Made by a program: the position numbers and the translations under genes
Part shown: positions 55,008 through 63,044 of the stretch, in pieces
Numbering within the stretch: position 1 is the stretch's first letter
Layout: each line of letters starts with the position of its first letter
Notes under the pieces: generated by a model
Seen by the model: only the letters and a program-made list of their open reading frames with translations
The model's database searches: none
What the model was told of the DNA's origin: nothing
Assembly: GCA_017651245.1 (NCBI GenBank)
Contig: JAGCDQ010000014.1
Span: forward strand, 1 to 64,000
DNA: 64,000 nucleotides
Direction: 5' to 3'
DNA from: Bacteroidaceae bacterium
Lineage (GTDB): Bacteria; Bacteroidota; Bacteroidia; Bacteroidales; Bacteroidaceae

Positions 55008-56489
55008 ATGATTAACTTACAGGAGGTCATTGAGACCAATAAGATGATCGAGCAGGAGAATCTGGATGTCCGCACCATCACGATGGGCATCAACTTGCTT
55101 GACTGTGCTGACCGTGACTTGACTGTCACATGTGAGAAGATATATAAGAAGATAACGACGCTGGCACGTGACCTTGTGCAGACAGGTGAGGACATCGCCA
55201 GAGAATTCGGAATCCCTATTGTCAACAAGCGTATCAGCATCACGCCTGTCTCGTTGGTGGGTGGTGCTTGTTGCCGCATACCAGGTGACTATGTACAAAT
55301 CGCAAAGACGCTGGACTGTGCTGCCAAAGATGTGGGTGTGAACATCCTTGGAGGTTATTCCGCCATTGTGTCGAAGGGCATGACGCAAAGTGATGAACTG
55401 CTCATTCGCAGTATTCCGATGGCATTGGCATGCACAGAGCGTATTTGTTCCAGCATCAATGTGGGCTCTACCAAAACAGGTATCAACATGGATGCTGTGC
55501 GTCTGATGGGTGACATCATCAAGCAGACGGCTGAGACGACGAAGGAGCGGGATTCTGTGGGATGTACCAAACTCGTGGTGCTCTGCAATGCGCCCGATGA
55601 CAACCCCTTTATGGCTGGTGCTTTCCATGGAGTGAGTGAGGCGGATGCCATTATCAACGTGGGAGTCAGTGGTCCAGGTGTGGTGAAATACGCCCTCGAA
55701 CAGATGGACGAGGCAACGAATCGATTAAGTATCGATTCGGAAGACTCGGGGTGCAGTGCTCCCTTTGTGCAAGTCCAACGAAGGAAGGGCGAAGCAGAAT
55801 GGGAAAAGCACAAAGGGGGACGTGGACTGGCTGATTTCGAACTCCTTTGTGAGACCATCAAACGCACTGCTTTCAAGATTACCCGTGTGGGACAACTCGT
55901 GGCACAGGAGGCGAGCCGTCGTTTGGGTGTTCCTTTCGGGATCATAGACCTGAGCTTGGCACCTACTCCTGCCATTGGTGACTCTGTGGCGGACATCCTC
56001 AAGTGCATCGGTGTGGAACATCCTGGTGCGCCTGGCACTACCGCTGCCCTTGCCATGCTCAACGACCAAGTGAAGAAGGGTGGGGTGATGGCATCCTCCT
56101 ATGTGGGTGGACTCTCGGGCGCGTTCATTCCTGTGAGTGAAGACCAAGGAATGATTGATGCAGTGGAGGCTGGAGCACTCACCATCGAGAAGCTCGAAGC
56201 CATGACCTGTGTCTGCTCCGTAGGACTGGACATGATAGCCATTCCTGGCGATACACCGGCTACCACGATTGCAGGCATCATTGCCGACGAGAGTGCTATT
56301 GGTATGGTCAATCAGAAGACCACAGCTGTACGTATCATCCCAGTGGTAGGCAAGACCGTAGGCGACACCGTCGAGTATGGTGGGCTGTTCGGTCATGCTC
56401 CTATCATGCCGGTCAATACCTTCTCTTCTCAGCGATTCGTGGACCGAGGAGGACGCATTCCTGCACCTATTCATAGTTTCAAGAATTAA
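55008..56489 (+). CDS. PFL family protein (UPF0210/DUF711) with palindromic in-frame insertion
   Basis: A 493-residue protein; the family is usually close to 450. Conserved segments include NIRTITMG-like [48 protein letters not shown], and [16 protein letters not shown] through [10 protein letters not shown] at the end. It has the fold of pyruvate-formate-lyase-like proteins but lacks the glycyl radical motif; function unknown. Between KYALEQ and [18 protein letters not shown] there are about 42 residues where relatives have about six. This stretch is Arg/Lys/Glu-rich and encoded by the palindromic segment at 55711-55820. The rest appears intact. Confidence 0.88.
55711..55820. repeat. Palindrome-rich segment inside the PFL gene
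   Basis: CGAATCGAT (55717-55725), 5-nt loop, ATCGATTCG (55731-55739) is a perfect 9-bp hairpin. CCCTTTGTGC (55761-55770) pairs with GCACAAAGGG (55808-55817). Between them CGAAGGAAGGGCGAAGCAG resembles CGTAGGAAGGGCGTAGCG just after gmd (62911-62928). The open frame is maintained throughout. Confidence 0.7.
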
Positions 56490-62895: not shown

Positions 62896-62922
62896 CGCTT
62901 TTTCCCCTTTCGTAGGAAGGGC

Positions 62923-62977
62923 GTAGCGTTATCGTAGCGTTATCGTAGCGATATGGTAGCGTTATCGTAGCGTTAAA
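62923..62977. repeat. 11-mer array downstream of gmd (5 units)
   Basis: GTAGCGTTATC, GTAGCGTTATC, GTAGCGATATG, GTAGCGTTATC, GTAGCGTTAAA in register, starting 27 nt after the gmd stop. It contains CGTTATCG, also present in the rluD-ddl array. The remaining DNA to 63044 is AT-rich leader of the fimbrial gene. Confidence 0.85.
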
Positions 62978-63044
62978 GTATTTCATAAAATAAAAAAGGT
63001 AGGCAAGGTGCCTATTGTTATTATTAACTTAATTTTTTATTATT

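Follow-up and report, generated by a model that had tools for sequence, protein, structure and literature searches.

Why does the gene for a PFL-family protein in the window, here meaning the whole 64,000-nucleotide stretch of DNA analyzed, contain about 105 extra bases that leave its reading frame open? The gene (55008..56489) matches Pfam PF05167 with an E value of 9.5e-188, and its solved homolog, found by sequence match, is PDB 2ha9. An earlier note on this DNA described the segment as a palindromic in-frame insertion, and two results agree with an in-frame insertion: in the ORF list the frame runs intact across the insert, and relatives have fewer residues there. The insert lies between the conserved motifs KYALEQ and LCETIK, a junction of 75 amino acids in the window gene versus 36 in the shortest class. 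We tried 34 congeneric PFL loci, of which 33 were usable (L023 had no motif match). The shortest junction occurs in 15 loci from 14 genomes, others are intermediate, and junctions of 75-78 amino acids are confined to the window genome (G000), G036, and G001. In 2ha9, three residues separate two aligned stretches that are 42 residues apart in the window protein. By eye, heptamer simple repeats fill the same loop in G035 and G040. These repeats and the range of junction lengths among relatives indicate that the loop tolerates changes in length. It is presumably exposed, and the open frame suggests that the insert is translated. Distant homologs bearing the same extra residues without a palindrome would have spoken against an inserted element; none were seen among the congeners read, whose loops are short or hold other sequence, or in 2ha9, which has no insert.

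We propose that the insert is probably a non-autonomous, structure-bearing mobile element of Bacteroidaceae-type gut bacteria that has no Rfam listing. We read the family itself as new, while its kind, the small non-autonomous palindromic mobile element, is already known. The features of the window copy are as follows.

55008..56489, + strand: host gene, PFL family (UPF0210/DUF711) protein of 493 amino acids (ORF list, Pfam, PDB)
55702..55829, + strand: whole stretch matched by element model R1, with its flanks (score 133.5 bits, genome-level E 9.6e-31)
55706..55708, + strand: GGA of the left border (GGA position across distinct copies)
55709..55820, + strand: element proper with approximate borders, starting behind the left GGA and including the right one (other copies and element-free relatives)
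55709..55748, + strand: 5' hairpin (covariation counts)
55709-55712 with 55745-55748, + strand: basal helix of the 5' hairpin (covariation counts)
55717-55725 with 55731-55739, + strand: apical 9-bp helix of the 5' hairpin (covariation counts)
55756..55811, + strand: core hairpin (covariation counts)
55756-55760 with 55807-55811, and 55761-55762 with 55802-55803, + strand: outer pairings of the core hairpin (covariation)
55764-55766 with 55798-55800, + strand: middle pairings of the core hairpin, with one mismatch in the window copy (covariation)
55768-55770 with 55794-55796, and 55773-55776 with 55787-55790, + strand: inner pairings of the core hairpin (covariation)
55761..55817, + strand: 10-bp inverted repeat, an alternative pairing (sequence and minimum-energy fold)
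55818..55820, + strand: GGA of the right border (GG(N)GGA-like ends across distinct copies; alignment of 39 copies)

The exact borders are approximate, because the distance between equivalent points is 112 nt, which is no multiple of three. R1 is a covariance model built from 25 copies, and the window copy is one of those rows; its match to R1 therefore exists by construction, and the support for it that is independent of R1 comes from DNA matches elsewhere in congeneric genomes.

The window copy is highly structured. The perfect 9-bp hairpin claimed earlier is present, as CGAATCGAT (55717-55725), loop TAAGT, and ATCGATTCG (55731-55739). The 10-bp inverted repeat that was also claimed, CCCTTTGTGC (55761-55770) with GCACAAAGGG (55808-55817), holds for the window copy, where the single-sequence fold prefers it, but the pairing conserved across the family at this position is GTGCT/AGCAC. 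RNA folding, one of the checks that the earlier note proposed, gives -46.6 kcal/mol for the segment, whereas shuffled versions average -32.8 (sd 3.5), a z of -3.96, and none of 200 shuffles folds as low.

The insert belongs to a dispersed family, as the earlier note had supposed from a partial repeat. Its DNA matches many sites outside PFL in congeneric genomes, with identities as high as 84% across 102 nt, both in other genes and in intergenic places. Among the loci fetched, a profile search yielded 54 distinct copies, and the covariance model likewise recovers the family, whose members are about 105-130 nt long. However, the copy that was suspected near gmd (62911-62927) does not belong to it. 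The family profile finds one match in the window, that in PFL, and short GTAGCGTTATC-like tandem units follow the suspected copy downstream of gmd (62911-62980).

Copies of the family share a common fold of two hairpins, a 5' hairpin and a core hairpin, and this fold is supported by strong covariation. When 39 copies are aligned with MAFFT, both partners vary in 22 of the 30 pairs, and 88% of cells are paired; none of 500 shuffles reaches the observed covariation, and slid registers pair in 31-44%. The basal helix is only 65% paired in this alignment because the 5' arm of the C-terminal group is misplaced. Among 25 copies of one geometry, 21 of 30 pairs change on both sides, with 95% pairing. 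The same pairing level, with 27 of 30 pairs changing on both sides, is seen for 100 distinct copies aligned to the model, although that alignment is fitted to the model and leans toward it. There are 74 G-U cells versus 24 A-C cells (shuffles, about 236 to 199). With the reservation that the rows are related and the alignment is fitted, this excess of G-U suggests that it is the sense strand that folds.

R1 matches (E up to 0.01) occur in 29 of 45 congeneric genomes, and the best match is 1e-6 or better in all but G012, where it is weak (E 0.0013). At E up to 0.001, there are matches in 22 of 301 genomes sampled from the family Bacteroidaceae (15 from the same genus and seven from three other genera). 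At E up to 1e-4, one of 393 genomes sampled from the order has a match, the window's own, under strict filters that may lose weak matches. The window genome holds three matches; besides the PFL copy, there are two weaker matches that represent a related type. By eye, we distinguish type A (GGGGTGCAGTGCTCG ... AAGCACAAAGGTGGA), type B (GGGGGATGGAAGTAGC ... ACATCGGTGGA), to which these two weaker matches belong, and a weaker type C found in other genera. The type-A core pattern occurs in 15 named stretches from Bacteroidaceae, Prevotellaceae, and Bacteroidales MAGs, including Candidatus Minthosoma equi; some are from the rumen by title. Several genomes carry multiple alike copies (G192, G019, G024, and G002), with 10 R1 matches in G192, several of them near-identical, and some copies are arranged in tandem. 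A search of viral contigs with the exact type-A pattern, and one of plasmids and phages with a single 128-nt copy, returned no match.

No listed RNA family was found for the element. Rfam returned no match over the element in the window. Eight type-A loci gave 20 matches at E up to 1, none at the gathering score; the L047 matches (1758-1832) reach the edge of a third, truncated copy, and the rest lie outside copies. Nine further loci gave one tRNA, outside the copy. Across all Rfam families, group I and II introns included, no gathering-score match covers the element. We also found no description of this family in the literature, searched mainly outside subscription journals.

Gene-linked copies lie mostly at gene 3' ends, in sense orientation. 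A survey of 107 copies, in which copies truncated by the left edge of a locus were skipped, counted 36 that are entered by a sense ORF of 150 amino acids or more; in 32 of these, the ORF stops no more than about 40 nt into the element, and the other four are read through. Antisense ORFs of that length meet four copies; by eye, these ORFs lie over genes in the sense direction, namely ackA (after pta), PFL, and the gene that follows a ThiS-like gene. By family models, the hosts include TruA, Pta, PurD, NqrF, an ABC ATPase, RNase H (truncated by the contig), a ThiS-like protein, DUF2795, and GH127, together with CarB and a glycyl-radical enzyme, whose matches are under the cut-off and which are both cut by the fetched stretch. 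Secreted host proteins with a KKVFIK end had no convincing family-model match. In-frame read-through with 60 or more upstream amino acids is seen for five of the 107 copies, three of them PFL copies from three genomes and one each in TruA (G035) and RNase H (G003), the last directly after the Cauli_VI domain. In three loci (L043, L044, and L045), the element extends a ThiS-like protein past its GG end, which in this family is normally the C-terminus.

Of 98 distinct copies, 72 have a GGA within 12 nt of the left end, compared with 13% of random 12-mers, and in 54 of the 72 it is in one register; a GG(N)GGA-like right end is found in 70 of the 98, and all these GGA counts are inflated by related copies. 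Repeats longer than GGA flank copies at some gene ends, while the TruA and PFL borders show no target repeat beyond GGAC or so.

Occupied and empty orthologous sites exist for several genes, where the filled loci (e.g., the five of carB) were chosen as filled. TruA is short in 30 of 31 loci, and G035 alone has the element. A full copy is present in seven of 23 nqrF loci and absent from 16, of which at least five keep, by eye, a type-B 3'-end scrap. These scraps indicate that loss occurs at nqrF, and the patchy distribution of the element may therefore be partly a product of loss. At carB, five of 25 loci have a copy and 20 do not; in two other loci a hairpin alone is left, and one has a copy with an internal deletion. 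Filled and element-free loci number one and four at purD (five loci), four and 10 at pta (14 loci), and one and five at the glycyl-radical gene (six loci). The empty purD end reads ATTGGACAAGATTTGCTGAAATAA in G000 and G032.

Other sequences occupy some of the same positions. For TruA, seven loci were fetched for a loop comparison, two of them without the motif; in the remaining five congeners (L341-L345), the loop holds other in-frame sequence where G035 has the element, namely heptamers of the CAACTGT type in L341-L343 and a further insert in each of L344 and L345. The carB 3' end of G043, G044, and G016 (L271, L272, and L287) carries another kind of hairpin insert, about 50 nt long and flanked by AGGAGTATGA in L271 and L287.

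We show that the family moves at some time, given copies in unrelated genes and alike copies between genes. The history of single sites is less clear. In a PFL gene tree of 33 rows with the loop removed, the three carriers are not sisters and need three changes, which are forced by well-supported branches in a tree whose bootstrap is not fully settled; one gain and two losses is among the possible readings. Between G000 and G036, the insert is identical at 100 of 105 positions versus 60% of upstream third codon positions, and in 100-nt windows the insert stands at 95% against about 77-92% for the rest of the gene. Between G001 and G000, the figures are 79 of 105 and 44%. Inserts are likewise alike at pta (99-111 of 117 identical, flanking third positions 0.53-0.60) and carB (102-109 of 112, flanking third positions 0.57-0.85). 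This likeness could reflect recurrent insertion at one site, or else descent under strong selection on the element combined with losses; the nqrF scraps keep the second reading in play.

Could the element instead be a host cis-acting RNA, such as a 3' untranslated region element, that is selected at gene ends and rarely moved, its in-frame copies being strays? The much greater conservation of the element at the pta and carB ends than of flanking third positions would be expected of such an RNA, as would the sense orientation, the stop codon inside the 5' hairpin, and the loss recorded by the nqrF scraps. Nevertheless, the element also occurs in unrelated genes and in intergenic places, one genome has several near-identical copies, and three different proteins contain it in frame; these points argue against such an RNA, and we regard this explanation as unlikely.

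A further possibility is that the unit is a mobile RNA of about 110 nt that inserts in sense orientation at gene 3' ends and homes without an encoded protein. Here the 3' arm of the 5' hairpin would pair with host codons as an intron guide does, and the same sites would be revisited across lineages. In the G024 purD copy, the native gene end forms the 5' arm of the hairpin and the complementary 3' arm comes from the element; purD, pta, carB, and the glycyl-radical gene all follow this pattern, with the 5' arm containing the native gene end. This complementarity within copies at four genes is what the idea draws on, but the wider test against element-free orthologs was negative: duplex energies between the 3' arm and element-free orthologous gene ends revealed no specific complementarity. 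For none of the 12 arms tested was the arm's own gene the best of seven, and the lowest shuffle count was 12 of 200 (purD); a flaw of this test is that the native TruA windows end at GAATGG, before the insertion point. Copying of the arm from its target is therefore not proposed here. A self-homing RNA appears rather improbable.

No mobilizing gene or larger autonomous form was found. Exact searches of the 45 congeneric genomes returned 32 hits for the core start and 27 for the 3' end, each in 17 of the 45 genomes; by eye, these are known full or truncated copies, except for one 3'-end hit (G031:C31:11253, L340). ORFs adjoining seven truncated copies supplied one candidate, a RAYT-like gene of 380 amino acids (L095:1597-2736, - strand) that abuts a 5'-half copy in G003. 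It scores 30.1 bits against the NCBIfam model for REP-associated tyrosine transposases, for which the cut-off is 80, and has no Pfam match. The element could thus be REP-like and moved by the genome's own REP-associated (HUH) transposases, a view helped by the relatives of this gene in 31 of 45 congeners (22 of the 29 with the element and nine of the 16 without). Yet when 30 RAYT-like loci were searched, the element appeared at the seed locus only, with two more matches at E values of 0.7 and 4.5, and seven element-bearing genomes, which are drafts, have no RAYT-like relative at E 1e-5. We consider this explanation very unlikely.

If no element were involved, the insert would be a product of ordinary drift in a variable coding loop. 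Such drift would suit the variable PFL loop of many relatives, the simple repeats seen by eye in G035 and G040, and the similar behavior of the TruA loop, but it is refuted for the window copy by the DNA matches in other genes and intergenic places and is contradicted by the covarying fold, so that it hardly deserves further consideration.

Under the preferred reading of a non-autonomous mobile element, copies would spread through an enzyme acting in trans, at GGA-containing sites, and the fold would act on the sense strand, as RNA or as single-stranded DNA. Copies would persist where the host gene is spared. At gene ends, the 5' hairpin may spare the gene by supplying a stop codon; in the other route, which PFL would exemplify, the copy stays open and in frame within a length-tolerant loop or linker. 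Weighing against this reading are the searches that yielded neither a mobilizing gene nor an autonomous form, target repeats that are not fixed past GGA, the 112-nt spacing of the two GGAs in PFL, the nqrF scraps, and the negative complementarity test.

The element is functionally akin to the Rickettsia palindromic elements (RPEs), although it belongs to another phylum and has another architecture. In the accounts cited here (PMC2229807, PMC10969869, PMC3767692), RPEs and their Wolbachia counterparts are palindromic repeats of 100-150 bp, some of which lie in frame inside conserved genes. The element is similarly short, palindromic, and repeated, with some in-frame genic copies, so the analogy drawn by the earlier note is apt. 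We do not assign it to the RPEs, however: its hosts are of Bacteroidaceae type, it has two hairpins side by side where RPEs have one long stem with terminal inverted repeats, and most of its gene-linked copies overlap the stop codon instead of lying in the gene interior. In comparing descriptions, we thus set it apart by host and architecture, while it shares the in-frame insertion.

Two other classes of small repeat resemble the element in part. MITEs such as Correia/NEMIS, ERIC, and RUP are described as non-autonomous repeats of less than 200 bp that fold at the RNA level and occasionally have open frames (PMC2229807). The element shares all of these traits, being short, non-autonomous, repeated, folded, and occasionally open, but we do not class it as a MITE, as the alignment of 39 copies has neither terminal inverted repeats nor TA ends. 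Among the end-pattern hits that could be assigned by eye, none belonged to a parent insertion sequence. REPs, described as 20-40 bp long and tagged by GTAG or CGTC (PMC3733652), are also palindromic and often beside genes, and a RAYT-like gene adjoins one half copy of the element. The element is longer, and its RAYT linkage is limited to one of 30 loci, the seed itself; we therefore do not assign it to the REP/RAYT system.

Conserved genes that host palindromic elements in frame are familiar mainly from Rickettsia and Wolbachia (PMC2229807, PMC10969869, PMC3767692). Gut Bacteroidaceae provide a second case that appears unrelated. Its covarying fold, its many filled and empty sites, and its copies inside PFL, TruA, and RNase H make it testable how DNA enters genes without breaking them. 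As the Rfam release searched has no model of the family, annotation will read its copies as protein variation.

Some copies have extended surroundings in common. In G192 (L181-L190), copies share flanks past the model, which read GAGACTCCCC to the left and, in many cases, GGGGTCT to the right, and a larger unit may thus move there. The weaker type C copies of other genera (L197-L203) adjoin tRNA-like or terminator-like sequence; in L200, Rfam places a tRNA at 1361-1445, and the type C copy lies at about 1507-1633 on the opposite strand.
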